From: Halobacteria archaeon AArc-dxtr1
GTDB lineage: Archaea > Halobacteriota > Halobacteria > Halobacteriales > Natrialbaceae
NCBI GenBank assembly: GCA_025517425.1
Contig: JAOPJY010000002.1
Location: forward strand, 310,001-374,000
Length of the DNA stretch: 64,000 bases
Reading direction: 5' to 3'
The notes beneath the pieces were generated by a model, which saw only the letters and a list, made by a program, of their open reading frames with translations, was not told the DNA's origin and searched no databases. Shown here piece after piece: positions 3,711 through 58,700 of the stretch. The translations under genes were made by a program, and so were the position numbers. How positions within the stretch are numbered: the stretch's first letter is position 1; each line of letters opens with the position of its first letter.

Positions 3711-3857
3711 GGCGTAGTGAACGCTTTGAAGGGACAAAAGCCCGTCTCACTCGAGGAGTTTATGGGGAGGACAGGACGTGGCAGTTGCGGTCGAACGCAA
3801 CGTGTTTTCCCCACCACCGAACTGCTTTCCAGCACCGAGACATCAGTAGTCGTCCCG

Positions 3858-28105: not shown

Positions 28106-29206
28106 TTACGCCCGCTCGACGCGCCGCGAGGGCTGGGGGAGCCGAGATTCGGCGATCGCGAAGGTGAGCGTACTCGCGATGCCGAGGACCGTTCCGGCCG
28201 TAAGCGCCGTCGCGAGGACGGTCAGCCCAACCTCGCCGATGAAGAAGCCACTGACGGCGTAGAGGACGACCGCAATCGCGACGACGTAAAAGGGCGCGTT
28301 CAGGTAGCGCCACTCAAGCGTGCCGGCGATGTACTCATCGGTGATCTGGCCCAGACTTGTGGTGACCGCGGCGGCCGCGATCCACTGGACCGAGCCGTAG
28401 ACGAGCGCGGCGAGAACGATCGGTGCACCCAACGTGTCCGCGGTCGCCTCCTGAGTCGCCCGAAGCGTGTTGCGGCCGCTGACGCCCGCGAGCACGACGA
28501 GGGCGACGGCGACGGCGTACGCAAGCAGCGTCATCCGACCGGCGTACAGCGAGTGACGGATCGACTCTGCGGCGCTGTCGAGTCGGTCACCGAGGGCGAG
28601 TCCTCGCGAGATCAGATAGAGGCCGAGCAGCGTCGAGGTCGTCCCGAGGACCAGCCCGGGAAGTTCGAGCAAGGCACCGATCAGCGCAAGCGGGTAGATC
28701 AGCAGTAAGATACCGATCGGAATCAGGATGGTCCCCCGCGTCTCGGGGTCGTCGAGAACCTGCTTGATCGTGTAGTACATCGACTCTAAGCCCTGAGCCT
28801 GTCGGACGACGACACGACGAACGCCGTCGATCGGTACCCGCGATCGGATAACCGGAATCACCGACTCGTCCTGGGCGCCATCGGTGACGACGAGGGCGGT
28901 GACGTCCTCGCCAGTCTGGAGGCTCGCGAGGACGGTGTCGACTTCGTCGCCGACCTCCCGCGTGGCGCCGACGTCGCTGCCGTCGTTTCCGGTGACGACG
29001 GCGACCTCGACGCTCTCGTCGCGATCCGTGAGGTCGTCGTAGACGTGCAATCCCTGGAAGATTACGTTCAGGTCCGAATCCTCGGGATCCGCGGTGGCGA
29101 GGGCGACGGCGGCCTGCTCGACCGGCTCCCGACCGATGACCGGCGTCGCAAAGCCGGTCTTGCGGCCGAGGTCGTCGTCGAGATCGACACAGAGGACCAG
29201 CAGCAT
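28106..29206 (-). CDS. DUF373-family membrane protein
   Basis: A 366-residue protein: an N-terminal cytosolic nucleotide-binding-like domain of about 150 residues (MLLVLCVDLDDDLGRKTG at the start, VVTGNDGS, then VVVRQAQGLESMYYTIKQVL), followed by six to eight hydrophobic helices. This is DUF373, an archaeal family without known function. It is divergent from the radical SAM gene and separated by 169 bp, a possible shared promoter region. Confidence 0.85.
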   Translation of the reverse strand: MLLVLCVDLDDDLGRKTGFATPVIGREPVEQAAVALATADPEDSDLNVIFQGLHVYDDLTDRDESVEVAVVTGNDGSDVGATREVGDEVDTVLASLQTGEDVTALVVTDGAQDESVIPVIRSRVPIDGVRRVVVRQAQGLESMYYTIKQVLDDPETRGTILIPIGILLLIYPLALIGALLELPGLVLGTTSTLLGLYLISRGLALGDRLDSAAESIRHSLYAGRMTLLAYAVAVALVVLAGVSGRNTLRATQEATADTLGAPIVLAALVYGSVQWIAAAAVTTSLGQITDEYIAGTLEWRYLNAPFYVVAIAVVLYAVSGFFIGEVGLTVLATALTAGTVLGIASTLTFAIAESRLPQPSRRVERA

Positions 29207-29375: not shown

Positions 29376-30371
29376 ATGATCTCGAAGGGCTGTGAGCAGT
29401 GTGCGAAAGGCGGCAAGATGGTGCTGTTCGTCTACGGCTACTGCGACCAGCGCGACTGCTTTTACTGCCCGCTCGGCGAGACTCGGAAGAACGTCACGGA
29501 CGTCTACGCCAACGAGCGCCTCGTCGAATCGGACGAGGACGTCATCACGGAGGCAAAGCGAATGGACGCCCTGGGAACCTCCATTACGGGCGGCGAGCCC
29601 CAGGAGGCGATGGGCCGGACCTGTCGGTACCTCTCCTTGCTCAAAGAGGAGTTCGGTGAGGATCACCACACGCATCTCTACACCGGCATCACGGGTGGCC
29701 GCGAGAACATGCGCCGCCTTTCGGAAGCCGGCTTAGACGAGATTCGCTTCCACCCACCGCTCGAACAGTGGGGCGACCTCCACGGCACCGAGTGGGAGGA
29801 GATTCTCTACATCGCCCGCGAGGAAGGCCTCACGCCGGCGTTCGAGATTCCCGGTATCCGCCCCGAAACCGAGTTTCTCGACTTCTTAGACGAGGGCGCC
29901 GCCGAGTTCTGTAACATCAACGAGTTCGAGATGTCCCACGGGAACTACCGCCGGATGCAGGAGGCGGGATACGAACTCAAAGAAGACCACATGAGCGCGG
30001 TCGACAACGACCGCGACGCGATTCTCGACGTGATGGGAGATCACGAGCGCGTCTACTTCTGTACCTCTGTGTTCAAAGACGCCGCCCAGCACCGCCGCCG
30101 ACTCAAGCGGATGGCCCGCCAGATCCGCCGGGAGTTCGACGACGTCACCGACGACGGGACGCTCGTCTACGGGAAGACCCGCGCGGCCCCCGAGCGCTTC
30201 GAAGCGCTCGGCGTCCCCAAGGAGTTCTACACCGTGAAGTCGAACCACGTCGAGGTCGCCTGGTGGCTCCTAGAGGAGATGATCGAGGATGGCGACGTCG
30301 ACGACGGGGAAATCGTCGAGCAGTATCCGACTTACGACGGCCAAGTTGTCGAGCGGACGCCGTTGGCGTAG
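29376..30371 (+). CDS. Radical SAM protein, COG2108-like
   Basis: 331 residues. The iron-sulfur cluster motif is C23-X4-C28-X2-C31 in YCDQRDCFYCP, one residue longer than the canonical CX3CX2C. An additional pair, C6 and C9 (KGCEQCAKG), precedes it. GTSITGGEP supplies the SAM-binding GGE motif. The C-terminus has no recognised extra domain. It resembles archaeal COG2108, related to pyruvate formate-lyase activating enzyme, of unknown substrate. The last 51 bp are duplicated 160 bp downstream. Confidence 0.85.
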   Translation: MISKGCEQCAKGGKMVLFVYGYCDQRDCFYCPLGETRKNVTDVYANERLVESDEDVITEAKRMDALGTSITGGEPQEAMGRTCRYLSLLKEEFGEDHHTHLYTGITGGRENMRRLSEAGLDEIRFHPPLEQWGDLHGTEWEEILYIAREEGLTPAFEIPGIRPETEFLDFLDEGAAEFCNINEFEMSHGNYRRMQEAGYELKEDHMSAVDNDRDAILDVMGDHERVYFCTSVFKDAAQHRRRLKRMARQIRREFDDVTDDGTLVYGKTRAAPERFEALGVPKEFYTVKSNHVEVAWWLLEEMIEDGDVDDGEIVEQYPTYDGQVVERTPLA

Positions 30372-30531
30372 AGAGTGTACCACGAGCGAATGACGTGAGC
30401 GAGCGGCTTTTTGGTCGAGGTTTTTTGGAAGCGGTGGGCGAGTGTAACGAGCGAACCCGAGCGAAAAAAGGTCGCGACCGCAGTATCCGACCTACGACGG
30501 CCAAGTTGTCGAGCGAACGCCGCTGGCGTGA
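30321..30531 (+). repeat. Duplicated 3' end of the radical SAM gene
   Basis: The terminal stretch at 30321-30371, encoding QYPTYDGQVVERTPLA and a stop, recurs at 30481-30531 with only a few, mostly synonymous, differences (Y, R and P codons), ending again in a stop. The copies are 160 bp apart. Both are followed within 50 bp by a similar CGAGCGAATGACGTGAGC-like sequence (C for T in the second). This points to a tandem duplication of the gene end, or to loss of most of a second copy. Confidence 0.75.
30408..30426 (+). terminator. T-tract terminator after the radical SAM gene
   Basis: Two T-runs (five at 30408-30412, six at 30421-30426), interrupted by GGTCGAGG, lie 37-55 bp after the stop codon. 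Archaeal transcription ends at such T-rich tracts without needing a hairpin. It separates the first from the second copy of the duplicated gene end. Confidence 0.45.
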
Positions 30532-30624: not shown

Positions 30625-32892
30625 TCACTCGACTCGTGTCGGATCGACCTCGGGAAGCGTGATCAGGTTCTCGCGGCCGATCCGGAGCTTGTCGATCTCT
30701 CCGTCGTCGTCCATCTTCGAGAGGAGTTGGGAGACTTTCGCGTTCGACCAGCCGGTCTCGTCGACGATCGTCGCCTGTTTCATTCGCCCCTCGTTGTGTC
30801 GCAAGAGTCGGTGGACGCGCTCTTCGTCGCTCAAGAGTTCGACGTCGACAGCAGTCGCGTCATCGTCAGGCTCGTCAGCCACGTCGTCCTCGGCCTCGGC
30901 GCTGACCTCGACTGTGGGCTCTGAGTACGTCGAGACAACCGCGTCGGAGGACGAATCGGACTCGTCTACGGCCGACTCGCCGGCGGCTGCCTCTGGGATG
31001 GTGTCTTCTGTCTCTGTGTCGCGGCGCACGCCGAAAACGTACGCGAGGAGAGCCAGGGCGGCGAAGAGTCCGAAGATGCCGAGCATCGTCGTCAGTAAGG
31101 AAGCATCGAGCGAGAGAGTCCCGTTTCCACGTACCGGCTCGGCTGTGAGGGTAGCGGTCTCGTCGGCGCCGTCGACCGTGATCGTCTCGGTGAGCTCTTG
31201 ATCGTCGTGGGTTGCCGAGAGGGTGTACTCGTCGCCCGGTAAGTCCTCGAAAACGACTTCGCCGTTCTCGTCGGTCTCGCCGGTTCGTTCCTCGCCGTCC
31301 GGTCCGGTGAGGGTGACATCAATTCCTGTAAGGGGCTCGCCATCTGCAGTCTCGAGGAGCGCCGTGATGGCGTACGTCTCCGGTTCAGGCGGTTCGGCGG
31401 TGAGCGTGGCGGTCTCGTCAGCGCCGTCGATCGTGATCATGTCGCTGAGGTCTTGATCGTCGTGGGTCGCCGTCAGGGTGTACTCGCCGTCGGGCAGGTC
31501 TTCAAAGGAGACCTCGCCGCTCTCGTCGGTCTCGAAGGTTTGTTCCTCGCCGTCCGGTCCGGTGAGTGTGACGTCGATTCCTGCAAGGGGCTCGCTATCT
31601 GCCGTCTCGAGAAGCGCCGTGATGGTGTACGTCTCTGGCTCTGGCGGTTCGGCGGTGAGGGTCGCGGTCTCGTCACCGCCGTCGACCGTGATCGTGTCGC
31701 TGAGTTCTTGGTCGTCGTGGGTCGCCGAGAGGGTGTACTCGCCGCCCGGTAAGTCCTCGAAAACGACTTCGCCGTTCTCGTCGGTCTCGCCGGTTCGTTC
31801 CTCACCATCGGCGTCGGTGAGCGTGGCGTCGATTCCTGCAAGAGGCTCGCCATCTGCAGTCTCGAGGATCGCCGTGATGGCGTACGTCTCCGGTTCGGGC
31901 GGTTCAGCCGTGAGGGTAACACTCTCGTCGGCGCCGTCGATAGTAGCGGCCTCAGAGAGGTCCTGGTCGTCGTGAGTCGCCGAGAGCGTATACTCACCGT
32001 CGAGTAGTTCCTCGAAAACGACTTCGCCGTTCTCGTCGGTCTCGCCGGTTCGTTCCTCGCCGTCCGGTCCGGTGAGGGTGACATCAATTCCTGTAAGGGG
32101 CTCGCCGTCGGCGTCGGTAACGGTGGCGATGAGGTCGTAGCGGTCCTCGACTGCCTGCTCGAAATACGACCAGCGCAGTTCGTCGGCATCAAACGTCTCG
32201 GGGCCGTCCCAGACGAGCGCGCCGTCCTCCGGCAAGATGGGGACGCTATCGGCGTCGTGTCCGTACCCCTCCGGCCGCTCAACGACGAGGCGCTGACCCT
32301 CGGAAAGCGAGCCGAACAGGGGTTCTCCGTCAGCGTGCCAGGCGTCGCCGATTTCCATCCCATTCAGAGACGTATCGGCGAAGTTCGTCCACGTGAACGT
32401 CTTGGCGATGACACCAACGGTTTCGTTCTCCGGTGATGGCTCAACGTCGGCGGGTTCGATACGAGGGTCGTCCCAGGCAGCGTCTTCGATCGCCATCTCG
32501 CGATCAGCGTCAGCGAGGTCGACGAACGTCTCGATCGCATCGAGGTCGAAATCGACGTCGGCCTCACCGTCGGCGACCGCCTCGGCGAACTCCTCGAAGG
32601 CATCGGCATCGGCCGCCGAATCGAGGACGTATCGACTCTCGACGGACCACTCGGCGTCGCCGTCGTCGGTGATAGAGAGTCGAATTACCTGCTGAGGATC
32701 GGCACGGTCGGGGGCGTCAGGTGAGTCAGTCGTCGACTGTGCGTTGGCCGCGGCGACCGCGGTGGTCTCGGTCGGTTCCGGTGCGGGAGCGTCGGCAGGG
32801 GTCGTGGCGTCCAGCGCGGCCGGCGAGACTGCCAGTGCCGGGGAGGCGAGGAGGAGGACGAGGGCGAAGACCACGACGGAGGGCAGCCGCAT
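30625..32892 (-). CDS. Membrane-anchored winged-helix protein with four extracellular repeats
   Basis: 755 residues. A signal peptide (1-21) and a Thr/Ala-rich linker lead to a surface domain of about 170 residues (resembling DUF7345), then four carboxypeptidase-regulatory-like beta domains of 85 residues each (about 246-585, with DADGEPLTGIDVTLTGPDG), a transmembrane helix near 600-620, an acidic linker and a C-terminal winged helix with EGRMKQATIVDETGWSNAKVSQLL. It looks like a one-protein envelope sensor and transcription regulator. Haloarchaeal relatives exist; the multiplied repeats are notable. Confidence 0.8.
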   Translation of the reverse strand: MRLPSVVVFALVLLLASPALAVSPAALDATTPADAPAPEPTETTAVAAANAQSTTDSPDAPDRADPQQVIRLSITDDGDAEWSVESRYVLDSAADADAFEEFAEAVADGEADVDFDLDAIETFVDLADADREMAIEDAAWDDPRIEPADVEPSPENETVGVIAKTFTWTNFADTSLNGMEIGDAWHADGEPLFGSLSEGQRLVVERPEGYGHDADSVPILPEDGALVWDGPETFDADELRWSYFEQAVEDRYDLIATVTDADGEPLTGIDVTLTGPDGEERTGETDENGEVVFEELLDGEYTLSATHDDQDLSEAATIDGADESVTLTAEPPEPETYAITAILETADGEPLAGIDATLTDADGEERTGETDENGEVVFEDLPGGEYTLSATHDDQELSDTITVDGGDETATLTAEPPEPETYTITALLETADSEPLAGIDVTLTGPDGEEQTFETDESGEVSFEDLPDGEYTLTATHDDQDLSDMITIDGADETATLTAEPPEPETYAITALLETADGEPLTGIDVTLTGPDGEERTGETDENGEVVFEDLPGDEYTLSATHDDQELTETITVDGADETATLTAEPVRGNGTLSLDASLLTTMLGIFGLFAALALLAYVFGVRRDTETEDTIPEAAAGESAVDESDSSSDAVVSTYSEPTVEVSAEAEDDVADEPDDDATAVDVELLSDEERVHRLLRHNEGRMKQATIVDETGWSNAKVSQLLSKMDDDGEIDKLRIGRENLITLPEVDPTRVE
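31137..32156. repeat. Four tandem 255-bp coding repeats
   Basis: Units recur exactly every 255 bp: the GTGTACTC-like anchor is at 31223, 31478, 31733 and 31988 (GTATACTC in the last). Each encodes 85 residues of a carboxypeptidase-regulatory-like domain. Stretches of more than 50 bp are nearly identical between units, so they arose by recent duplication or are homogenised by recombination. Confidence 0.85.
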
Positions 32893-33036
32893 ACGACGAT
32901 ATCGAGAGTACGTGGGGAAAAAACCCTTTCCATTGACAGAGTTAGGCGGCGTTTTGGGCGGTTTTGGGGGATCTCGAGGCGCAGCGCCGAGACTACGTCG
33001 ACTGGTTTTTGTAGGAGGGGTCGAATGGTGGTCTCA

Positions 33037-34296
33037 ATGAGAAGCTCGGTCCCCGCCCTCCTCGGCGTGGTCGTCATGCTGGTGCTCGCCGCGCCCGCAC
33101 TGGCGCTCACTGCCGCCGGACCGACGGCCTCCACAGCCGAGACGAACGACACAGCGCACCCGACCACAGCGACCGAGACAAGCCAGACCAACGATCACCT
33201 CGTCACCAACGACACGACGAACCGACTGACCCTCGACCGTGACGGCGCGAACGCGAGCGCGATTGCGACACCGAGACCCGATCTCGGAACGATACTCGCC
33301 GGCGAGGATACCGCCCTCGAGTACGAGTTCGACTGGCACCGCTTCGACGGCAGTTTCGACGACCTGAACCAGAGCGAGCGCGAGGCAGCCGGCCAGGCCA
33401 CAATGGACGCGATCGCAGATCGGTTCGCCGAGTTGCAGGAACGCGAAGCCGCGGTCGTCGAGGCCCACGCCAACGGTGAGGCGAGCGAGGACGACCTCTT
33501 CCGGACGCTCGCGCGAAACACCGCCGAAGCCGAGGCGCTCCTCGAGGCAGCCGACCGGACGATCGATCGCGCCGAGTTGGTACCGGAGCACCGAACCGAC
33601 TTCTACAGCGTGAAAGAGGATCTATACACCGGGTCGATCCGTGAGGCCATCGCCGCAGGGGTCGCCGGCGAGGAGGTCGACGAAATCGGGACGGTCACGG
33701 TCGAGACCAGCGAGACTGGGCTGCTTCTGTCAGCGATCGACGACGGTGAGTACGTCCGCGAGGCGACTCGCTACGACAACCGGGACCGGGGAGGGACTGA
33801 CCAGATCGGCGGCCTCTCGTCGGCGCTCGATACTGCTGCAGAGTACTATCCGTGGGCGTTCGAGGACTCGAGCAGCCAGCGCAGCGCGCTCGCGCCGCCG
33901 CTGCAGCTCTACCGGATCGGCGTCTCCCCATCACAGGGCGAGGTGACGGCCTATCTCGACGGGGCGACGGCCAGCGTCTACCACGAACAACAGCGACTCG
34001 CGCTCTCGACGCTGCCGATCAACAGTGAGACGACCGAGAGTACCGGATGGATCAACGTCAGCCTCGAGCGGACGCCCGCGGGCGGTCCGGCGCTGGTGTC
34101 GGCGACCGACACCACGGGCTCCTCGGTCGATGCGACGGTCTCCGTCGATGGTGTCGAGATCGCACAGACAGGCATTGACGGAACAGCCTGGATTGCACCG
34201 CCGATGGACGCTGAAGAGGTGACAGTCGAGGGGTACGGAGAGAAAATAACGATGCCGCTGGATGCGGCCGACGGCAACGGAGCGGGAGACGATTGA
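33037..34296 (+). CDS. Secreted haloarchaeal protein of unknown function
   Basis: About 419 residues. A Sec signal peptide (about 1-25, VPALLGVVVMLVLAAPALA) is followed by a Thr/Asn-rich acidic stretch, a helical region (about 100-185 with repeated acidic helices: NQSEREAAGQATMDAIADRF) and a beta-rich C-terminal half ending in a Big-like/carboxypeptidase-regulatory segment. There is no transmembrane anchor. ATG 33037 sits before the signal's Arg. It is divergent from the repeat-sensor gene with 144 bp between, suggesting shared regulation. Confidence 0.65.
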   Translation: MRSSVPALLGVVVMLVLAAPALALTAAGPTASTAETNDTAHPTTATETSQTNDHLVTNDTTNRLTLDRDGANASAIATPRPDLGTILAGEDTALEYEFDWHRFDGSFDDLNQSEREAAGQATMDAIADRFAELQEREAAVVEAHANGEASEDDLFRTLARNTAEAEALLEAADRTIDRAELVPEHRTDFYSVKEDLYTGSIREAIAAGVAGEEVDEIGTVTVETSETGLLLSAIDDGEYVREATRYDNRDRGGTDQIGGLSSALDTAAEYYPWAFEDSSSQRSALAPPLQLYRIGVSPSQGEVTAYLDGATASVYHEQQRLALSTLPINSETTESTGWINVSLERTPAGGPALVSATDTTGSSVDATVSVDGVEIAQTGIDGTAWIAPPMDAEEVTVEGYGEKITMPLDAADGNGAGDD

Positions 34297-34679: not shown

Positions 34680-35183
34680 GTGCGCTCCTCTCGCGGGTTA
34701 ACTGCTGCAGATCGGCAGCCAGCGTCGGAACCGGCGGTCAGTCCGGTCGTTGGCGTCGTCGTACTCGTGGTGGTGACCGTCCTGCTGGCAGGCGCCCTCG
34801 CCGTCGCCATGAGCGCCGTCCCCTCGGAGGCGGATCCGCCGACGGCGACGTTCGGGGTGTCGGTCGACGCCAACGCCGATCAATTCGTGTTCGAGCACCG
34901 CGGTGGCGACGCCGTCGACGTGGCGTCACTCTCGGTAGAGGTCACTGTCGATGGTGAGGCACTTCGCTACCAGCCCCCAGTTCCGTTCTTTTCAGCACAG
35001 GGGTTCGAGAGCGGCCCAACGGGACCGTTCAATCCCTCAGGGAGCACGGAGTGGTCGGCGGGGGCGCATGCGGGATTTAGTCTGGCCGGGACGAACGCAC
35101 CCCGGATAGAGCCAGGCGATCGGGTGACTGTCGCGTTCGTCGTCGACGGACACCGCATCGCGGAGTTGGTGGCGACTGCGTGA
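34680..35183 (+). CDS. Type IV pilin-like protein (archaeal Pilin_N)
   Basis: 167 residues. A short positive leader precedes the class III hydrophobic helix AVSPVVGVVVLVVVTVLLAG (about 19-38), the archaeal pilin N-terminal domain, presumably processed by the PibD peptidase. The remainder, about 125 residues, is a beta-rich, acidic domain (SVDANADQFVFEHRGGDAVDV) typical of adhesion or immunoglobulin-like pilin heads. No pilus assembly ATPase or platform protein is nearby, so it would use one encoded elsewhere. The start is GTG 34680, leaderless. Confidence 0.8.
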   Translation: MRSSRGLTAADRQPASEPAVSPVVGVVVLVVVTVLLAGALAVAMSAVPSEADPPTATFGVSVDANADQFVFEHRGGDAVDVASLSVEVTVDGEALRYQPPVPFFSAQGFESGPTGPFNPSGSTEWSAGAHAGFSLAGTNAPRIEPGDRVTVAFVVDGHRIAELVATA

Positions 35184-35338: not shown

Positions 35339-38242
35339 TTAGTTCTGACGGCGCAGGGCCAGCATCGCGGCGCCCAGCAGCGCGGTCAGTGCGACGGCGA
35401 TGCCGAAGCCGGGCGTCTCGTCGTCATCGTCGTCGTCATCGTCATCGTCGTCGTCAGACGTGGCGGCGTCGATTGCGGCAGAGACGCTGTCGAAGCCAGC
35501 CTGGTCGGCTTCGTCGTTGAGGTCGTCAAGGTCGGACTGCGCAGCGTCACGCTCGTCCTGTGCGTCGTCACGCTCTTCCTCGGCAGTTGCGAGGTCGTCC
35601 TCGAGGTCAGCGACCTGGCCTTCGAGGTCAGCAACCTCGTCCTGCGCAGCGTCACGCTCGTCCTCAGCCGTTGCGAGGTCGTCCTCGAGGTCAGCGATCT
35701 GGCCTTCGAGGTCGGAGATCTCAGACTCGAGGTCCGCGATCTCGTCCTGTGCAGCCTCGTAGTCGGACTGCAGGTCAGCGATCTCGTCCTCAGCGTCGGC
35801 GAGGTCGGCGAGCGCGGCGTCGCGCTCGTCCTCAGCGTCGGCGAGGTCGGACTCGAGGTCAGCGATCTGCTCTTCGTTGTCAGCGTTCTCGTCCTCGAGG
35901 TCAGCGATCTCGGACTCGAGGTCCGCGATCTCGGACTCAGCGTCGGCGAGGTCCGAGAGCGCAGCGTCGCGCTCATCCTCAGCGTCCGCGAGGTCGTCCT
36001 CAAGGGACTCGATCTGGCTCTCGAGGTCGGAGATCTCGTCCTGTGCGTCCTCGTAGTCGTCCTCGAGGTCAGCGATCTCGGACTCGAGGTCCGCGATCTC
36101 AGACTCGAGGTCAGCGATCTCGTCCTGTGCAGCCTCGTAGTCGGACTGGAGGTCCGCGAGGTTGCTCAGGATGGAGCCGTTCTCAACATCCGTAGATGTT
36201 TCGTCATTGAGATCGTCCTCGAGCTCGTTAATTTGCACGAGGAAGTCGTTGCTTGGGTACCAGTCCGTGACGTCCACACCGAGCAGGTCGGCGAGGGACT
36301 CGAGGACGGTGTCGGACTCAGATTCGGGGGTGTCCGAGAAGATACCCTCAACGGTCTCCTCTTCGATGCCAGTGTCCTCGGCACCGAACGTGATGCTCAC
36401 TTCGTCACCCTCGTCGCGGTCCGCGAAGTTCTCTGGGTCCTGGAACTGGAAGGTGCGGTCATCCTGGACGGTGACCGTCTCCTCAGTCAGGAAGACACCG
36501 GACTTCTGCACTTCGAAGTCAATCTGGCTGCCGGGGGCAGCGGTGGTGGTGCCGGTGATGACACCGTCTTCGGAGTTGACGATCTGGTACGGCGTCTCGA
36601 CGAGGTCGAGGTCAGCCGTCCGCTCCGTCACTTCGTAGCTGGTCGTAGCGACTTCGGAGTTGTCGTCCTCGTCGTCGTCAGACGATGGGATGTAGTCGTT
36701 CTCTTCGGTGACGTTGAACTCAGTGTCCCATTCACCGTGGTCGTCACCGACCTCGTAGACGAAGTAGACTGTCTCTTCGTCAGGGACAGGGACGACGGTG
36801 AAGTCCTCGTCGTCGAGGTAGGTGTCGTCGTCAAGCTCGGCGAGGAACTCAACGCCGACATCGTCGGTGAGGTTTCCGTCGTCGAAGGCGTAGCCGAAGA
36901 CACCGTTGACGTCCTGCTCGACGATGACCGTGTCGCCCTCTGCGAGCGTGTCATCATCAGTCGAGGCGTCGAGGAGCGTCTGAAGGTCCTCGTAGGAGAG
37001 GTCGTCAACGCCCTCAAGGCCCTCGATGTCCTGGTAGTTTGGTGCGATCGAGACATCGGCGTCACCGGTCGTGCGGTCCTGAAGCGTGGCGACTTCGGAG
37101 CTGACGCGGTTGTTCCAGTCGATGTCGTCGCTAGCGCCCTCCTCGTAGAGCGAGAAGGTGAACGCGATTGCGTCGAGGCGTTCGTCATCCTCTTCGAATT
37201 CCGTCTGATCGATCTCGTCGTCAGCGGAGACGTCGACATCCTCATTGTCGGTCGTGAAGACGTCTTCGACGTCTTCCTGACCGGCGTTGTAGGAGTTGAA
37301 GTCGATGTAGACCTGCTCGTCGTCGAAGTCGCCGTCAAGTTCGAGTGCGACAGCAACCTCGTAGGTCTCGTCATCGTCCTGGCTGACAACGGTGAAGCCG
37401 ATCTCTTCACCGGCGTAGGCTGCCGGCTCGTCGAAGTAGATCGGGATCTGCATCTCGTCACCCGTTGGGGTGTCTTCGATGTCACCGAACTCGATGTCAC
37501 CATCGAGATCCTGCTGGATGTTGATCGTTGCAGTGTCGGAGGCGCCAGTGTCCTGGACCTCGATATCGAATTCGTGCTCACCAGCGGGTGCCTCGGAGAA
37601 GTCAGCGCTGATGTTCTCACCTTCGGCGACATCGTGCGTGGTGCCGTCGAAGAAGCTCGCGACGGTGTCGTCGTCGAGGTCATCACTGCTGATGTCGACA
37701 GTGACCTCACCGCCACGGTTGTCGTCCGTGAAGTTCAGTTCGACATCTTCGAGACCGTCGTCACCCTCAACGAAGTTAGAGGGTTCGAAGTCGAAGCTAA
37801 CCTCCTGAGCGCTCCAGACGAAACTGCTCGAGGTTTTCGTACCTTCGTCACTGATCAGTTCAAGATGAACTCGCTGTTCATCGTCACCGTCTGAAACGAT
37901 CGGAGCAGTATCCTCTGCTTCGAGGGTCAGGGTGTCACCATCAGTGCTAACGTCGCCGATGGTCTCGCCTGGGTTAGACGGTGCCCCCTCAACGATATCG
38001 GCCTGGAACGCACTTGCGTTCTCAACCTGAGGGAGTTCCGTTACAGTCAGCTCTTGTCCTTGAACCAATTCATCTTGGTCGCCGAGGCCATCCCATTCGA
38101 CCTCGCCGACACCATCGTCGTTAACCGCAGCCGCTGCCCCGCCCGCAAACGCAGCGGACATGGCAACGACGGAAAGAACCATCATCGCAGCGAGGAACAA
38201 CGCACGTCCCTTTTCGCGATATGAGGTTTCGTTTCGTGTCAT
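35339..38242 (-). CDS. csg: Probable S-layer glycoprotein with coiled-coil stalk, PGF-CTERM
   Basis: 967 residues. The N-terminus (REKGRALFLAAMMVLSVVAMS) is the haloarchaeal surface-glycoprotein signal (TIGR04207-like), cleaved near residue 38. An acidic beta-rich ectodomain extends to about 660. A coiled coil of about 260 residues (about 665-925) with near-perfect DLESEIA heptads follows, then a run of Asp and PGFGIAVALTALLGAAMLALRRQ, a PGF-CTERM signal for archaeosortase (ArtA) processing and lipid attachment. Haloferax Csg has a Thr-rich spacer before the anchor; this protein has a coil instead. A TATA-like box at 38408-38416 implies a leader of about 145 nt. The gene symbol is by analogy only. 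Confidence 0.8.
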   Translation of the reverse strand: MTRNETSYREKGRALFLAAMMVLSVVAMSAAFAGGAAAAVNDDGVGEVEWDGLGDQDELVQGQELTVTELPQVENASAFQADIVEGAPSNPGETIGDVSTDGDTLTLEAEDTAPIVSDGDDEQRVHLELISDEGTKTSSSFVWSAQEVSFDFEPSNFVEGDDGLEDVELNFTDDNRGGEVTVDISSDDLDDDTVASFFDGTTHDVAEGENISADFSEAPAGEHEFDIEVQDTGASDTATINIQQDLDGDIEFGDIEDTPTGDEMQIPIYFDEPAAYAGEEIGFTVVSQDDDETYEVAVALELDGDFDDEQVYIDFNSYNAGQEDVEDVFTTDNEDVDVSADDEIDQTEFEEDDERLDAIAFTFSLYEEGASDDIDWNNRVSSEVATLQDRTTGDADVSIAPNYQDIEGLEGVDDLSYEDLQTLLDASTDDDTLAEGDTVIVEQDVNGVFGYAFDDGNLTDDVGVEFLAELDDDTYLDDEDFTVVPVPDEETVYFVYEVGDDHGEWDTEFNVTEENDYIPSSDDDEDDNSEVATTSYEVTERTADLDLVETPYQIVNSEDGVITGTTTAAPGSQIDFEVQKSGVFLTEETVTVQDDRTFQFQDPENFADRDEGDEVSITFGAEDTGIEEETVEGIFSDTPESESDTVLESLADLLGVDVTDWYPSNDFLVQINELEDDLNDETSTDVENGSILSNLADLQSDYEAAQDEIADLESEIADLESEIADLEDDYEDAQDEISDLESQIESLEDDLADAEDERDAALSDLADAESEIADLESEIADLEDENADNEEQIADLESDLADAEDERDAALADLADAEDEIADLQSDYEAAQDEIADLESEISDLEGQIADLEDDLATAEDERDAAQDEVADLEGQVADLEDDLATAEEERDDAQDERDAAQSDLDDLNDEADQAGFDSVSAAIDAATSDDDDDDDDDDDDETPGFGIAVALTALLGAAMLALRRQN

Positions 38243-38659
38243 GTGTTGTGTATTGTTGTCGCGTGATCGATTTCGTCGATCAGTCGCGCGAACCGAATGT
38301 CCATGGTCGGACACCCGTTCACTTGGAGCGTGTCGTGGCGACCGGTGACGCCCACACGGTGGGGCGCTGGAGCCGTCACTCACCTCCTACCGGGTAGGGG
38401 TATAGAGTAATTTTAACTATCCTGTAATAAGCTTTCTGTCTGAGTGTCTCGTTTCGTGATGGACGTAGCAGCGGGAGACAGGCCTTCCGTCCCCTGATTA
38501 AGAGTTAATTACCGATGGTTGGTTTCCGATTTCAAGGGCTGCAATAAAATTATCTGCGGAATCTTCCGCCGACGCTGTGAGTACGGAACTGCGGACCGTC
38601 TCGTCGATCGAACACAGTTCGTCGAAACACATTTCACACGTAACGAACGTACCAGGGGC
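38243..38659. promoter_or_regulatory. Divergent promoter region of S-layer and protease genes
   Basis: 417 bp with AT-rich parts in GC-rich surroundings. On the minus strand GTTAAAATTA (38408-38417) is a TATA candidate for the S-layer gene, giving a transcript leader of about 145 nt. On the plus strand AATAAAATTAT (38543-38553) is a candidate for the surface protease gene. TTAAGAGTTAATTA near 38498-38511 is a further AT-rich element, midway. Confidence 0.45.
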
Positions 38660-41422
38660 ATGCGTAACCGGGCGTTACTTCTGAGTTTGGTTCTCGTACT
38701 CGCCCTCTGTGGCGGTGTGGTGACCGCCGGAGCCGGGCCGAGCGACGGGACGGCCCAGGCCACGTCCGGGCAAGAGCTACACACGGTGTCGGCGCCGGAG
38801 ACACTCACGGCGTCCAATCCGGGAACACTCACAGCGTCCAATCCGGGAACACTCACAGCGTCCAATCCGGGAACACTCACAGCGTCCGGGCAGGAAGCGC
38901 CGACGCTGCTCTCATCGCCGACGACCGCCGACTCGTCGGCGACCAACGCGGATTCGCTCCCCGAGGAGCAGATCGCGGTGAGCTACACGTTCGACGTCGA
39001 CGGCGAGGATCCACTGACGGGATCGGTCACCGTCGAGATTCCCGACGCGTATCAGGACCGGGATGGCGAGTTCCAAATCGAGACGTTCGGTCTACAAGTG
39101 ACGTCCACCGAAGGATTCGACGGAGGCGGCAGCACGTACACCTGGGACGGAGAGACCGACGAGGCAGTGCTCTCGTTCGAAACCGACGTGACCAGAGCCA
39201 TCCACTTCGACGGCTACGACGCCTACCACGCCGAGGACTGGGCGCTGGGGCTGTTCGGAATCGACGCGAGCTACGTCGAGGACGGACAGGCGTACGACGA
39301 CGCCATCGTCGAATCCACCGCACCCGGCACACCCGAGGCCACCGTGGGAGCGTGGATGACCTTCGTCGGCGCCCACGACACCACGGCGATCGACACCGGC
39401 GGGCAGACGGTCACGCTGGTCGTCCCCGAGGGAAGCGAACGCGACGACCACGACGAGCTCGTCGCAGCCATCGAAGATGGCGGACACGATCTCCGCGTCG
39501 GCGCGAGATCGGCCGAAGTCGTCGCGATTGCGGCACCGGATCCGATCCGCGAGGGCGGACTGGCGTACTTACACGGCGACTTCTGGACCCACGAGAGTGC
39601 GCCGATCCACACCTGGCTCCACGAGTACGTCCACGCCCGCCAGGGGTACCAGACGGCCGAGTCGGCGGCGTGGCTCACCGAGGCCGAGGCGGAGTTCTAT
39701 CCGAACCTCATGTTCCTCGAGCACGACCACCCGATCGACGTGCCGGGCACCGAATTCGAGGAGTTCCAGCGCGTGCTCGGCTACGACGAGGACGTCGACG
39801 ATCCGACCAACTACGAGGACGTCACGCTCACGGATCCAGAGACGTGGGAGGGGACGCTGGCCGACTACCGGAAGGGCGCGCTCGTCCTAGCCGCCCTCGA
39901 CGCCGAGATCCGCGCGGCGACCGACGGCGAGCGAACCTACGCGGACGTCACGCGCGAGTTCAACGCCCACGATGGAGTCGTCGACCACGACGTGTTCGTC
40001 GAGACGGTCGAGGCCGTCGCCGGCGAACCGATGGACGCGTTCGTCGACCGATACATTACGGGCGAGGAGATCCCCGACCCACCGACCGATCCGGACGCGT
40101 ACGGTACCTGGGACGAGTTTGACGTCTCCCTGGCGGCGACGCTGGGTGAGGTAGCGGTCAGTCCCGGCGAGGACGTCACCGTCCCCGTCAGCGTCACGAA
40201 CGACGGGACCGATCCAGCTGTCGGCGTCGAGGCGACGGCAGACGTTCCCGACGGCTGGAGCGTCGTCGACGCCGACGGCGGGACCGTCTCGGAGGGAACC
40301 GTCACCTGGACCGAGGGCGAACTCGCCCCCGGCGACTCGATCGACGGCTCGATCACGCTGCTCGCACCGGCGGACGCAGACGGGATCGACGACCTGGAAC
40401 TGCAGGTGACCGACGCCGACGAAAACCACGTGCAGACGGGCGTCGAGGGCGACACAGTTACCCCGCCGGAGGCCGCGATCGACGCACCCGCAGTTGCGGT
40501 CGCCGGCGAGGAGGTGACGATAGATGCAGGCGAAAACGGAGCCGACGGCGCGATCGAGCGCTACGAGTGGGACCTCACCGGCGACGGCGCGATCGACGAG
40601 GAGACGACCGAGCCGACCGTCCCCACCGCGTTCGAAACGCCCGACGAGCGCGAGGTGTCGGTGACTGTCGTCGACGAACACGGCTTCGCCGACACCGCGA
40701 CCGCCGAGGTGCTGATCACCGACGTGCCGACCGTCTCGATCGACGGGCCGACGACGCCGGTGGCCGACGAACCGGTCGCACTCGAAGCGATCGTCGAGAA
40801 CGAGATCGGCGCCACAACGGTCACCTGGGAGCTACCCGACGGAAGCGAGGTCGACGGCGACCAACTCGAGCACACGTTCGAACCCGGCACCCACCAGATT
40901 TCGGTGACCGTCACCGACGAGCACGGCGCCGAGGCGACCGCGACTCACGAGCTAACCGCGGTCGAGGCACCTGACATCGAGATCGACGCCCCGGAGACCG
41001 CGGTCGCCGACGAGCCGATCGCGATCGGGGCGGTCGTCGACGCCGACGGCGTGTACACCGTCGAGTGGCAGCTCCCAGATGGCACGCAAGCGACGGGCGC
41101 GACGGTCGACCACACGTTCGACGCCGGCACGCACGTCATCACCGCGGTCGTCACCGACGAGTACGGCGCCGAGGCGTTCTCCGAACACGAGATCACAGTC
41201 GAAGCCGACGAGACCACAGACGACGCGGACGCAGACGTCGGTGACGACACTGCCGATTCGAGCGATCAGAGTGAAGACGAGGCTGCAGATGGCGCGGTCA
41301 ACGAGGAGCCGACCGAGACGGGAGACGACTGGCTGGCGGATGCGACGCCGGGTTATAGCGTCGCGAGCGCGCTCGCGGCGCTCGCCCTCGCTGCGCTGGT
41401 GGTCGTTCGAAACCAGGGGTAA
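38660..41422 (+). CDS. Surface-anchored HEXXH metalloprotease-like protein with PKD domains
   Basis: 920 residues. A signal peptide (1-26) leads to a Thr/Ser-rich linker containing four TLTAS-type repeats. The catalytic-like region has WLHEYVHARQGY (HEXXH at about 321-325) and a following WLTEAEAEFYP (about 338-348) with Glu that could be the third zinc ligand (gluzincin-like). Three PKD/Ig-like domains follow (about 610-870, e.g. TYEWDL-type segments such as RYEWDLTGDG), then a disordered acidic linker and TPGYSVASALAALALAALVVV, a PGF-CTERM variant. It is divergent from the S-layer gene. Protease activity is inferred. Confidence 0.7.
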   Translation: MRNRALLLSLVLVLALCGGVVTAGAGPSDGTAQATSGQELHTVSAPETLTASNPGTLTASNPGTLTASNPGTLTASGQEAPTLLSSPTTADSSATNADSLPEEQIAVSYTFDVDGEDPLTGSVTVEIPDAYQDRDGEFQIETFGLQVTSTEGFDGGGSTYTWDGETDEAVLSFETDVTRAIHFDGYDAYHAEDWALGLFGIDASYVEDGQAYDDAIVESTAPGTPEATVGAWMTFVGAHDTTAIDTGGQTVTLVVPEGSERDDHDELVAAIEDGGHDLRVGARSAEVVAIAAPDPIREGGLAYLHGDFWTHESAPIHTWLHEYVHARQGYQTAESAAWLTEAEAEFYPNLMFLEHDHPIDVPGTEFEEFQRVLGYDEDVDDPTNYEDVTLTDPETWEGTLADYRKGALVLAALDAEIRAATDGERTYADVTREFNAHDGVVDHDVFVETVEAVAGEPMDAFVDRYITGEEIPDPPTDPDAYGTWDEFDVSLAATLGEVAVSPGEDVTVPVSVTNDGTDPAVGVEATADVPDGWSVVDADGGTVSEGTVTWTEGELAPGDSIDGSITLLAPADADGIDDLELQVTDADENHVQTGVEGDTVTPPEAAIDAPAVAVAGEEVTIDAGENGADGAIERYEWDLTGDGAIDEETTEPTVPTAFETPDEREVSVTVVDEHGFADTATAEVLITDVPTVSIDGPTTPVADEPVALEAIVENEIGATTVTWELPDGSEVDGDQLEHTFEPGTHQISVTVTDEHGAEATATHELTAVEAPDIEIDAPETAVADEPIAIGAVVDADGVYTVEWQLPDGTQATGATVDHTFDAGTHVITAVVTDEYGAEAFSEHEITVEADETTDDADADVGDDTADSSDQSEDEAADGAVNEEPTETGDDWLADATPGYSVASALAALALAALVVVRNQG
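38801..38896. repeat. Four 24-bp tandem coding repeats in the protease linker
   Basis: ACACTCACAGCGTCCAATCC plus GGGA recurs at 38801, 38825, 38849 and (partly) 38873, the first with GGC for AGC. It encodes TLTASNPG. The three full copies are almost identical at DNA level, so the array is recent and probably length-variable between strains. Confidence 0.8.
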
Positions 41423-52714: not shown

Positions 52715-55700
52715 TCACCCAGCTGCTTCTGCGATCCGTCGTCGGTACCACATCACGGACCCTCCGGTCAGTCCGGCGGCGGCGAGCGCCGCGAGCGGGA
52801 GCCACCAACTGTCAGCTACCGTCGGGTCGTCGTCCGACTGGGGCGGTTCGACGGTCAGCGTCTGTGTGTCTTCACCGTCGATCGCCAGCTCGTACGCACC
52901 AGGCTCGTCGGGCTCGAACGCGAACGAAATCTCCTCGCTCGCACTTCCGTCGAGTATCACCGCCTGCGTCTCGACGACCTCGCCATCGACGACTAGGTCG
53001 ACCGAGCGCTCGGCCGTATACTGTCCCCGGTTCGTGACTGTCGCCGTCACCGTCGCCGTCTCGCCGGCCGAAATTGTCGCTGCTTCGAGGGTGGTGTCAG
53101 CGACCGTCGTCGACGGGACGCCGGTGCCAAGCGAGAACACTGAGAGGCCATCGGCCATCGCCTCGAAGGTAGCGTCCGTCTCAGTGTCTGCGACGTGGTC
53201 GGTCGACAGCGGTTCCCAGCCGTCCTCGCCCTGTCGGTAGAGCGTGAGCTCCTCGGAGTCGACACCGAGCTCCGCGAGGTACGCACGGTCGACACTGAAC
53301 GCCAGGGTGACGTTCGAGGCTTCGCCCGGGTCGACGTTGTACTCGAGGTGGACGTAGCCACCCGACAGCGTTCCCGTCTCCGTCTCGAACGTTTCGGCGG
53401 CTGGGGCGAGCAGCGCCTCGGTCTCCGGGGTCGTCTCGGTCGATCCACCCGGCGTGAGATCGTCCGTGTACGACGAGACGTTGACCCAGAGCTCACGCTG
53501 GGACGCCAAATCCAGATCCATCGAGAGACCGGTGACCGTCATCGACTCCGTCCCCGAAAGGGCAACGGTACTTTCCGTGGTCGTCTCGTTGAGCGAAATC
53601 GTCGAGCTGGGGCTACTAATCCAGGTGTAGCCGTCTTCGACGTGGACCGGTTCGACATCGATCACAGCCGTCGCCGTCTCGTCGCCGTACTCGGCGGTCA
53701 CCGTCGCGGTGCCCGCCCCGTATGCGTCGACCGTCCCGGTCGGGCTGACGGTGGCGACGCCAGCATCGTCCGTCGAGAAGGTGGTACGGGCCGTCACGTC
53801 CGCGACGGTCCCATTATGATACGTCGCAGTCACCGTAACCGTCGTGGACTCGACCGTCGTCAGTTCGGCCACGCCGAACTCGGCGGCCAACTCGACTACG
53901 GGCGAGGGCTCGACGGTTACCGCGGCGGTCGTCGAGATCGCGTCGTCACTCGTCAGTTCGGTTCCGACGGTGTACGTGCCAGGGGTGTGGCTCTCGAAGG
54001 GCACCGATGCGACGCCTGTAATGTTCGTTTCGACCGGCTCTTCGATTGCGGTGCCATCGAGACCGTCGGCGTCAGCAACGGTGACCGACGCGCCCGGAAC
54101 CGGATTATCGAACGCGTCAAACGCCGTGATCGCGATCGAATCGGCTACGCCGGCCTCTGCGGTGACGGAGTCGGCGACGAGGGTGGCCGCCTCGGCGGGC
54201 TCGACCGTAATCTCGACCGCGTTCGATTCGACGCTATCGAGTTCGGCGGTCACCGTGTAACTGCCGACGGTCGTCTGGTCGAACGCCCCCTCCGCGCTCA
54301 CGTTCGTCCAGTCGAACGCTGCATCGGCGGTTTCGTTTTCGTTGCCGAACACGTCGTACGCGGTGGCGTCGAACATAACCGTCTCGCCGGCGGTGATCGT
54401 CCGGTCGCTCGCGGGAGAGATCTCGACCGCGATGACGGTGGCTGGCTGGACGGTTACCGTCGTCGTGTCAGCTTCGACGCCAGCCAGTTCAGCCGTTACC
54501 CCGTAGGCTCCGGCAGTCGTGTTTTCGAAGGTGCCGTTCGCTGTGGTGTTCGTCCAGGTAAATTCGGTATCGGCGGTTTCGTTTTGGTTGCCGAACGCGT
54601 CGTAGGCCGTGGCGTTGAGTTCGAGTTGCTCGCCGGCGGTGAGTACCTGGTCGCTTTCGGGATCGAGTTCGACGGTCTCGACTGCGGCCGGCTCGACCTC
54701 GATCGTGATCGGATCGGATTCGACGCCGGCCAGCTCGGCGGTCACCTCGTGAGTGCCGGCAATCGTGTTCACGAAGGTGCCGCTCGCTGTGGTGCTCGCC
54801 CAGGTGAAGGCAGTGTCGGCAGTCTCGTTCTTGTTGCCGAACTCGTCGTAGGCCGTCGCGTTGAATTCGACCGTCTCACCCGCGGTGATCGTCCGGTCGC
54901 TCGCGGGATCGATTTCCACCGTGTCGACGGGTGCTGGCTCGACCGTTATCGACACGGTGTCCGACGTGACGTTCTCGAATGTCGCGGTCACATCGTAACT
55001 GCCGGCGACCGTGTGCTCGAACGTCCCGTCTGTGGTCGTATTCTCCCACGTGAACGCCGTGTTGGCCGCCTCGTTCTCGTTACCGAACGCGTCGAGAGCG
55101 GCCGCATCGAATTCGACCGTCTCGCCGGCCGTGATCGTCTGGTTGTTCGTGGGATCGATTTCGACGCGCTCGACCGCGGCCGGCTCGACGGTGAACGCAT
55201 CGGTCAGTGCCGTCTCAGCTGCGGCGACGCCCTCGTCGGCAGCATCGATGCTGAACGCGAGACGGTACTCGTCGGCGGTTTCGATCACCAGCTCGTCGAA
55301 CGTGGCGAGCCCATCACTGGCAGTTTCGACCGTCGTCTCGGGCGAGACGATGGCACCGGTACCGTCGACCGCGTCGACGGTCATATCGACGCCTTCGACG
55401 GGGTTGTCGAACTCGTCGGTGACGATCGCTTCAGGCGGTCCGGTGATGGGGCCGCCCGCAGACTGCGTGCTGTCTGGTTGCGTTTCGACTGCGATGGCGT
55501 CAGCGTCGGCCGATTCGACGTCGAACGAGTCGGTCTGTGTCTCGTCGGCGTTCGCAACGTTCGCGTCACTGTCATCGATCGAGAACGCGAGTCGGTAGTC
55601 GTCCACGACGTCGATTTCGAGATCGTCGAAGGTGGCGAGACCGGCTGCGTCGGTCTCGACAGCCGTCTCGCCTACAGTGATCGAGCCAGCGCCCTCGATG

Positions 55701-58700
55701 GCGTCGACGGAGACGGTGACGTCCTCGACGGGGTTGTCGAACTCGTCGGTAACGGAGGCGCGTGGCGGTCCAGTGATCGCCTCACCGGCAGTCTGCGTCC
55801 CGTCAGGCTGTGTTTCGACGGCGACCGAACTGGCAGCAACCGATTCGACGGTGAAGCTGTCGGTCAGTGCCGTCGCATCACTCCCGACGTTCGCGTCACC
55901 GTCATCGATCGAGAACGCGAGTCGGTAGTCGTCAGCAGTCTCGATTTCGAGGTCGTCAAAGGTGGCGATGCCCGAACTGTTGGTCGAAGCCATCATCTCA
56001 CCTGCAGTGATCGAGCCAGCGCCGTCGATGGCGGCGACGGAGACGGTGACGTCCGCGACGGGGTTGGCAAACTCGTCGGTGACGGTGACCGTTGGTGGTC
56101 CAACGAGGTTCTCACCGGCCGCGGCCTCGGTTGGTTGGGTGTCGATGGCAACGTCGATCGCGTCGTCCGGAAGGACCAGGAACGGGATGGTCTGAGCGGT
56201 ATCGGACTCGTCGACGGAGTCGTCTGCAGCGTCGATGCTGTACTCGAACCGGTACGCATCAGCCTCCTCAATCGTGATTCCGCTGAGCATGGCGAATCCC
56301 TCGAAGGTAGTCTCTGTCGTCGTGTCTCCGCTCGTAATCGAACCCGACCCCTCAATCGCCTCGACTGTGATAGTGACTCCTTCGACGGGGTTGTCGAACG
56401 CATCAGTCACTTGTGCGAGGAGAGACGAGGGCAGTTCCTCGCCAGCAACCGTGTCAGAAGGAGCGGAGCTCTCCGACACCGAGACGGCGTTCCCTGCTTC
56501 CACCGTGAACTCCTCGCTCGTGGCGCTCACACTCGAGTTGGCCGCCACCTCGAACGTGAGGGTGTACGCCTCCGCCTGTTCAATGTGCAGGTCGTCGAAG
56601 GCGACGAAGCCACTCGAGTCCGTCTCGAGGGTGGTGGTTCCGCCCAGGTCGCCTGATCCGCTGGCCGTGACGGTCACGTTCTCCTCACTGATGGCGTTTC
56701 CGAACGCGTCGGTGAGGTTCGCCGTCGGTGGTCCCTCGATGGATTCACCGGCGGTAGTCGTCTCCGGTTGGGTTTCCACGGTCAGGAGATCTGGATCGGC
56801 GGCGGTGACGGTGCCGTTGATGCTGTCACCCTCCGTGATCTGGTTTCCGTCGACCGTCAGCATGTGATTGTCGTCGGCGGTCGTCACACCCTCGAAGCTC
56901 AGTACCGTGGTGCCATCGTCGCGGATATCAGTATGAACGTTGTGGACCTCTCCATCGTACTCTGAGGTACCGTTCAACTGAGTGGTCTCCGTCCAGAGGT
57001 TCCCATACTCGTCGGTTACTTTGACGTCCAGCGAAAGGAATTCGCCAGCGGTCACCGAGTACGTCTCGTCGAGGAGCGTCACGTTGTGCGCTCCGGTCGC
57101 TTCCGTCTCGATATCGACGCTATCGCCACTCACGCCATCCGCATCGACCGTCAGCGTGTGGGTTCCGCTCGCTGTCACGGTTTCTTCAGGGATGTCGAGG
57201 TCCGCATAGCCGCTTTCGTTCAACGGCAGCGAACCCCCCTCGAACACCTCGCCATCGAGATCTGATGTCACTATCAGGTTCTCGAGTTCTTTGTCCGAAC
57301 CCAGATTGCCAAGCACATCCGTGGCGTTGATCGTCAGCGTGAACCCATCACCTGCCGTGATCTCTTCGGGTGCCGAGGTAATGTGCAGAGAGTCGAGTGG
57401 GGCTGGCACGACCGTGAAGTCGTTCGAGGTGGCGTTGATAGCTGGATCGTCTTCGACTGCAATCGTCAGGTTGTACTCGCCCGTGGTGTTGATCTGGTTC
57501 TCAGAGAAGTGCACAGTGCCAGCGAGCCCAGTCTCACGAGTCTTCGGGTCCGAAAGCTCGCCGGGTCCGTTCGCAGTTCCCGTCACATTGACGCCAAGAA
57601 CGGGATTTCCGTATGTGTCGGTGACTTCGACAACCGGGTTACTGAGATCCTCGCCTGCAGTCTGGTCAGAGAGGAGAGTACTGGTGAACTCAATCGAGGC
57701 AGGATCGGCGGCATCCACCTGAATAGCCGTACTGTCGGGAGAGACGCCATCCGCATCGACCGTCAGCGTGTGAGCGCTGTCGGCCGTTGTAATCTCGTCG
57801 GTGCCCCAAAAGACCGGCATTTGTCCATTCGAATCCACCTCACGGGAACTTTCGTTACTCACCGCTCCATCGTGTTCGGAGGTGAGCGTGACGGTCTCGA
57901 GGGTCTGGTTGACTGCCGGATTACCGAACTGATCGGTCACTTCCACAGTAACAGAGCTGGCAGCGCCAGCCGAAATCGTAACTGGATCGTTCACAATCTC
58001 GAGTGCGTCCGCGGCTGCGGCACCCACGTCGATGTCTGTACTGTCTCCATCGGCGTTACTCGCATCGAGGGTCAGCGTGTGGCTCTCGTCTGCGTTGGTG
58101 AGCGCCACGTCGACTGTTGCTCCGCCGTATTCGTCGAGATCGAGTGTGGACGCAGAGACGAGCGTTCCGTCTTCGGTGTGTTCGGAGGTGAGCGCCACGT
58201 CTTCAGCAGTCACGTTGGCCGCCACGTTACCCAGCACGTCAGTGCCGTTGATGGTGATGGTGAACTCCTCACCCGCAGTGGCCGAATCCGGCACGTCCGT
58301 AATCTCGAGTGAGTCGAGGTCGCTCGCGCCGACGGTGAACGTCTGACTGTCGACACTCGCCGATTCGCCGACGTTGATCGCGGCGCTGTCGATGCTGAAC
58401 TCCAGTCGATAGTCACCAGTCTCGTTGATCGCCAGATTGCTGAACGTAGCGATTCCGTCACTGTCCGTCTGCGAGGTCGTCGTACTCGCGTCCGTGAGCG
58501 ATCCCGGCCCGTCGATGACTTCGACCTCCACGGTGGCGACTCCGACCGGATTGCCGAACTGATCGGTCACCTTCGCCGATGGGGAACTGCCGCCGTCGCC
58601 CGTGATCGTCTCACCGGCGGTTTGTTCAGTGTCGGGTTCGATTTCCACCGCTACCGACTCGGCGTCGTCCGGCGTCACCGTCAGCGTCGCCGTCGTGGCC

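Follow-up and report, generated by a model that had tools for sequence, protein, structure and literature searches.

What use would a transcription regulator anchored in the archaeal membrane have for four tandem repeats on the outer side of the cell? The question is raised by a single gene in the window analysed here, a stretch of 64,000 nucleotides from Halobacteria archaeon AArc-dxtr1 (contig JAOPJY010000002.1, positions 310,001 to 374,000 of the forward strand, numbered below from its first letter). The first-pass annotation had described the product as a one-protein envelope sensor with a cytoplasmic winged helix, and proposed that copy-number changes of the repeats might alter its sensing reach, for example across an S-layer encoded nearby. 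As discussed below, we find it reasonably probable that the protein is a conserved haloarchaeal one-component regulator whose winged helix works on a site of its own, with four Ig-like domains serving as a spacer. A literature search for its two end domains, DUF7345 and DUF7343, or for COG2512 returned no paper naming either DUF; COG2512 was mentioned once each in two papers, on Plasmodium and on human DNA replication.

Domain architecture and topology

The gene (30625..32892, minus strand, with an ATG start) encodes a very acidic, cysteine-free protein of 755 amino acids, in which Pfam recognises DUF7345 at residues 72-210 (E 9e-31, 107.2 bits against a curated cut-off of 27.5) and, at the C-terminus, DUF7343 at residues 686-747 (30652..30837, minus strand; E 2e-30, 104.9 bits against 27.6). 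Its top hydrophobic segments lie at about residues 3-27 and 598-622. The first comprises a Sec-type signal peptide of about residues 1-21 (32830..32892, minus strand), with a modelled helix at 6-15, and the second a single membrane helix at residues 597-623 (31024..31104, minus strand), directly followed on the inner side by Gly-Val-Arg-Arg. Between them we find the DUF7345 sensor domain, which spans residues 63-245 in the model (32158..32706, minus strand), and four Ig-like repeats, also on the minus strand: R1 (residues 252-336; 31885..32139), R2 (337-421; 31630..31884), R3 (422-506; 31375..31629) and R4 (507-591; 31120..31374). On the other side of the membrane helix, an acidic linker at residues 624-683 (30844..31023, minus strand; pLDDT <50 over 623-680) leads to the winged helix, the one basic part of the protein, with 15% lysine plus arginine compared with 1-4% in the other parts. 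The hydrophobic segments, the AlphaFold2 model and the Gly-Val-Arg-Arg after the helix are together read as a topology in which the DUF7345 sensor would face the outside and the DUF7343 winged helix the cytoplasm.

The full-length AlphaFold2 model, built from 44 sequences (mean pLDDT 76.6, pTM 0.41), contains a mixed alpha/beta domain at residues 63-245, four beta-sandwiches, the membrane helix at 597-623 and, further on, three helices at 689-729, with pLDDT <50 at residues 736-740 and 742-749, which form the wing of the winged helix. With a pTM of 0.41, the full model gives no sign of rigid repeats, a point against the spacer reading. Modelled alone, the DUF7345 domain reached a pLDDT of 92; when its fold was compared with those of ribophorin/Ost1, FMO and the N-domain of M1 aminopeptidase no match stood up, the best structural match (Z 7.8, rmsd 5.2, 126 aligned) being at the same level as unrelated rows. 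As for DUF7343, its winged-helix fold is predicted from the model, from weak matches to HTH_IclR and MarR_2 among the general HTH models of Pfam, below cut-off, and from its own sequence; PDB chain sequences gave no match to the winged helix at E<=0.1, and both this result and the sub-threshold HTH scores count against DNA binding.

The linker invites another explanation, by which the winged helix would be freed by regulated proteolysis near the membrane to act in the cytoplasm, and the length of the stalk would matter little for access to DNA. A long, acidic, low-confidence stretch such as residues 623-680 would suit cleavage, and the length of the segment between membrane and winged helix differs among the orthologous frames. 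However, transcription factors can work from the membrane, as described in the account of transmembrane regulators in PMC10269533, and we consider release by proteolysis unlikely.

A Foldseek comparison of the full model with the PDB gave the TIE protein of B. anthracis (6fwv) and sortase pilins as best matches, the TM-scores over the full length being low, and the repeats are predicted to fold as beta-sandwiches resembling the stalk domains of sortase pilins. In the same line, the Pfam model CarboxypepD_reg matched in four stretches of the protein (E 1e-38), and the SpaA and Big_1 models also matched the repeats. The fold would be that of the CnaB/SpaA domains of BcpA, SpaA and TIE. These domains carry a Lys-Asn isopeptide bond, whereas residues 252-591 contain not a single lysine, so that such a bond is impossible in the repeats of the window. 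These likenesses to pilins and adhesins speak for binding modules instead of a spacer, which would dock to a partner, be it the S-layer, a pilus or a second cell, or keep the protein dimeric, the contact itself being the signal; the pilin gene conserved beside the regulator (see below) points in the same direction. The repeats are missing, however, from the orthologues examined, and a protein with neither lysine in its repeats nor any cysteine could be locked neither by isopeptide nor by disulfide bonds, and a binding function seems to us possible but doubtful.

A mosaic repeat array

Tandem Repeats Finder reported the array at 31135-32106 with a period of 255, 3.8 copies, 83% matches and a score of 1359. 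Pairwise identities among R1-R4 range from 75 to 86% in DNA and from 73 to 84% in protein. The observation behind the first-pass annotation is confirmed by these data: the signal peptide, the external domains, the one membrane helix and the winged helix were recovered by Pfam, hydrophobicity and AlphaFold2, the four external repeats of 85 residues (255 bp) agree with the period and with R1-R4, and a one-protein envelope sensor with a cytoplasmic winged helix is backed by domains, topology and conservation; to call the copies near-identical was nevertheless an overstatement.

The identity among copies is patchy. Exact shared tracts of 98 bp (R1/R4), 61 bp (R2/R4) and 50 bp (R1/R2) were reached in fractions of 0, 0.0054 and 0, respectively, of 5000 codon permutations, whereas for R1-R3, R2-R3 and R3-R4 the tract lengths were unremarkable (fractions 0.07, 0.96 and 0.26 in the same test). 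Because three of the six pairs have exact tracts of 50-98 bp, the pattern suggests gene conversion or unequal exchange within the array. Tandem repeats are described as an assembly hazard (PMC6868369) and the array occurs in one genome only, which raises the question of an artefact; yet the copies differ by 14-25% in DNA, the frame is open and no exact tract common to two copies exceeds 98 bp, making an assembly error highly improbable.

A donor of the repeats was not found in the own genome, 392 genomes of the order, plasmids or phages. The own genome has no other copy at E<=1, and matches at E<=1e-8 occur in 31 of the 392 order genomes, own counted; those listed have 29-42% identity, with one short exception at 57%. 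No winged helix was seen in 14 order-level loci with repeat matches, where some frames are cut at the ends of the locus. Plasmid matches amount to 42 records, the best 15 of the 42 at 26-28% identity, and a single phage match has 25% identity.

A derived stalk on a conserved regulator

The protein has a match in 124 of 125 genomes of the family (E<=1e-20) and in 60 of 61 relatives (E<=1e-5), own counted in both cases and some of these matches being to one end domain only. Judging by these searches, DUF7345-DUF7343 regulators are common in haloarchaea. The haloarchaeal membrane proteins of this kind (PF24036 plus PF24034) share end domains, their order, topology and neighbours with the window gene, which makes them its orthologues; the difference lies in the four Ig-like repeats, found in none of 123 other frames. 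Among the matches listed from the 125 family genomes, only that of the own genome runs through the repeats, and blastp found no match to the repeat region either in 29 loci (L007-L035) and the relatives among L036-L066 or in any of the 79 relatives in named loci. For the latter set 80 loci were taken, one of them (L097), at a contig edge, having no listed frame; the named and unnamed sets overlap, part of them being the same genomes.

A count of frames gives the same picture. We collected 125 distinct frames with both end domains, two of which are copies of the window gene; some of the 125 are pieces of one gene, and there are 115 distinct C-termini. The stalk from DUF7345 to the membrane is 358 residues long in the window gene versus at most 42 (median 16) in 122 of the 123 others, those with a clear membrane segment; the last one, L033, has no more than 95 residues from one end domain to the other, a total whose largest value among the 123 is 177. 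Long open frames were considered as possible carriers of the repeats and none had the insert, their extra length being mostly an upstream extension of the frame; in L176 it comes from an elongated linker beyond the membrane helix. Among orthologues the winged helix hardly varies and is far more conserved than the sensor.

In a gene tree of 80 rows, the window gene falls within a split of 55 Natrialbaceae rows (support 100/99), on a long branch (0.88) and not grouped with Halostagnicola. Since all the other rows of this split lack the insert, the insert is derived. By these comparisons, the window gene encodes a conserved transmembrane one-component regulator to which a derived stalk has been added, and is not a member of a copy-number series: the regulator is of a kind already known, and none of the relatives examined has this variant with a repeat stalk. 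The interpretation given in the first-pass annotation is thus partly supported. The comparison of repeat numbers that it called for did reveal a difference in the stalk, zero repeats in the relatives examined against four here, and showed no other copy number among them; the case that would have spoken against it, homologues with a fixed single domain, applies by half, since these homologues have no repeat domain at all.

The insert might also be neutral, an in-frame gain that was retained and leaves sensing unchanged, which would agree with its presence in a single genome and with the long branch of the gene. The intact frame and the values of dN (0.10-0.20) versus dS (0.29-0.90) among R1-R4 argue instead for constraint, an argument that conversion complicates; we take neutrality to be improbable, though not strikingly so.

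A conserved 16-bp site before the gene

A comparison of 78 intergenic regions, a few of them perhaps wrongly anchored, revealed one strongly conserved stretch. In the window it is the 16-mer GGAAAAAACnCTTTCC (32916..32931, plus strand), of the form GGAAA-N6-TTTCC, 23 nt ahead of the start codon of the regulator. The exact dyad occurs in 48 of the 78 regions, window counted, versus 0.0002 in mononucleotide shuffles, and a core AAAA[CT]nCTTTC[CT]AT in 72. The distances from core to start fall into the three phases as 12/50/10 (72 regions), and because the reading frame is not kept the core must be conserved as DNA and not as coding sequence. An AT-rich, TATA-like stretch follows the core in 51 of the 78 regions.

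In the own genome the exact 16-mer occurs once, with two more copies at two mismatches; across the 125 family genomes it is single in 98, double in none and absent from 27, and the reversed control gave 0. A GCAT, such as the complement of a start codon would leave, lies 21-26 nt from the site in 98 of 98 genomes. In 79 of the 80 genomes that could be checked, which are those of the 98 with the regulator among the matches listed, site and regulator match are at most 1.5 kb apart, and in 71 at most 250 bases. The 80 named loci add up to 1.26 Mb, in which 62 copies of the core AAAACnCTTTC[CT]AT lie close to the start of the gene; it was called elsewhere only twice, both times in loci with an over-extended frame start. 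The lone exception among the 80 genomes, G004, has its gene divided between two contigs (L184, about 3648-4223, and L185, 4414-5286), the N-terminal half being accompanied by the 16-bp site, DUF7096 and the pilin, and the C-terminal half by the radical-SAM gene. The two halves have a protein stretch in common at the break; the split may be a rearrangement or an assembly fault.

Since a global regulator would have many sites, a single copy per genome beside the regulator argues for a dedicated self-site, and we regard the 16-bp sequence as a candidate operator of the regulator itself, that is, a putative element of autoregulation. It resembles the targets of archaeal Lrp-type dimers, which in the account given by PMC6396743 bind inverted repeats of 13-17 bp with AT-rich centres. 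Several results count against the operator reading: the 27 family genomes lacking the exact 16-mer, the loci outside Natrialbaceae, which mostly have the core only and in some cases not even that, the absence, judged by eye, of a clear TATA sequence where one would be expected in the window, and the dyad statistics of the window alone, where two sites with one mismatch were found for 0.54 expected and 8 of 100 shuffles reached two, no rarer than chance. A sigma-70 scan, whose model does not suit archaea, found no promoter.

Another protein could own the 16-bp site. It might belong to a different regulator or be an element of a leader RNA, with DUF7343 acting elsewhere, and such an assignment is helped by the binding of DUF7343 being a prediction, by the transcript start being deduced, and by the core standing mostly alone in distant families. 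Against it, the site is single in most of the family and lies beside the regulator in all but one of the genomes checked, a coincidence that renders a foreign owner unlikely in our opinion. Five other DUF7343 genes (L002, L053, L054, L055 and L064), the only paralogues whose upstream regions were compared for the site, have a different upstream stretch, with TTTTAG in all five and CACGTA in three, which may be their own promoter or operator; as to the site in paralogues, five regions are too small a sample for a judgement.

Gene neighbourhood

The window gene has the usual place of its orthologues, beside a divergent gene with DUF7096, DUF7094 and Fn3_arc domains (33025..34296, plus strand) that is present in 77 of 79 loci and may be a co-target of the regulator. 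A type IV pilin-like gene with Pilin_N (34680..35183, plus strand) is conserved in 69 of 79 loci as another possible target, a link that one strong site leaves unexplained. On the other flank, a radical-SAM gene (29376-30371) is found in 52 of 79 loci and the gene at 28106-29206, which we take to be DUF373, in 54. The radical-SAM protein, mostly with 85-92% identity in the loci where it is matched, received no specific name above cut-off in Pfam or NCBIfam, and the 3' end of its gene is repeated in the gap before the regulator gene (30320-30369 and 30480-30529; 50 bp, 94%).

As regards the S-layer said to be encoded nearby, the gene in question, at 35339-38383, is that of a surface glycoprotein, a putative lattice protein, whose 1014 amino acids include halo_sig_pep, BGTF and PGF-CTERM above cut-off and a long coiled-coil-like part made of degenerate repeats; its score with the ArtA-dependent S-layer model is far below cut-off. 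The gene was unmatched in the 18-kb stretches of two genomes of the same genus (G001 and G003). A relative is found in 15 of 41 genomes, own counted, and G023 is the single one of the other 14 in which this relative and the regulator are no more than 10 kb apart, so by these searches it is not a conserved neighbour. Elsewhere in the window, long-period arrays at 54302-55189 (246 bp x 3.6) and 55388-56085 (330 bp x 2.1) possibly belong to another repeat-built surface protein, and a 24-bp tandem repeat at 38801-38887 (3.6 copies, 98%) is perhaps a young array.

Known systems and a proposed mechanism

With a membrane region and a predicted DNA-binding domain in one chain, the protein resembles the transmembrane transcription regulators described in PMC10269533, which are likewise one-component and membrane-bound with a predicted HTH. 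For the control of pili and archaellum there is an archaeal precedent in ArnR/ArnR1 of Sulfolobus, where ArnR is described with an N-terminal HTH, a putative HAMP, a sensing domain and two C-terminal membrane helices (PMC6396743); the window protein differs from this layout in having an N-terminal outside sensor, one helix and a C-terminal winged helix. Another likeness is offered by arCOG00381, a halobacterial membrane-bound regulator predicted to control pilins (PMC4858521), which is also haloarchaeal, membrane-bound and accompanied by a pilin, a likeness by description. Finally, the accounts of Periscope Proteins (PMC9704523, PMC8201768) describe repeats of more than 50 residues and high identity, a beta-sandwich stalk that lifts a functional domain, and signs of recombination, to which the present array corresponds with repeats of 85 residues and 75-86% nucleotide identity, in one genome of the species. 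Those proteins are described on the bacterial cell surface (PMC9704523), whereas the domain lifted here would be part of a transcription regulator.

In the mechanism that we favour, DUF7345 would sense something at the envelope, and the single membrane helix and acidic linker would pass its state to the cytoplasmic DUF7343 winged helix. A dimer of the latter most likely occupies the inverted repeat of 16 bp before the regulator gene, a site that would sit between the expected TATA box and the transcript start, so the regulator would keep its own promoter repressed, perhaps along with that of the divergent DUF7096 gene, and a change in the state of the sensor would end the repression. The four Ig-like domains between sensor and membrane, so far seen in no other genome, would be a spacer. 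An Ig-like domain is 3.5-4 nm long, and four of them would therefore add an estimated 14-16 nm, raising DUF7345, otherwise beneath the S-layer, to roughly the height of that layer. In Haloferax volcanii, the distance of the S-layer from the membrane is given as 20.4 +/- 2.7 nm (PMC7838353), against which a longer reach is dimensionally plausible, and no more than that. In a bolder version, the protein would be a membrane transcription factor that regulates itself and carries its sensor at a height determined by how many recombining Ig-like domains it has, so that a change in the repeat count of one gene could bring the sensor out from below the S-layer and up to the surface of that layer; this strikes us as decidedly unlikely.

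The most useful new result is the dedicated site before the gene: present as a single copy in 98 of 125 family genomes, it offers an immediate, testable DNA target for this family of regulators. Moreover, a stalked orthologue beside stalkless ones amounts to a natural experiment on whether the height of a sensor relative to the S-layer matters when the envelope is sensed.
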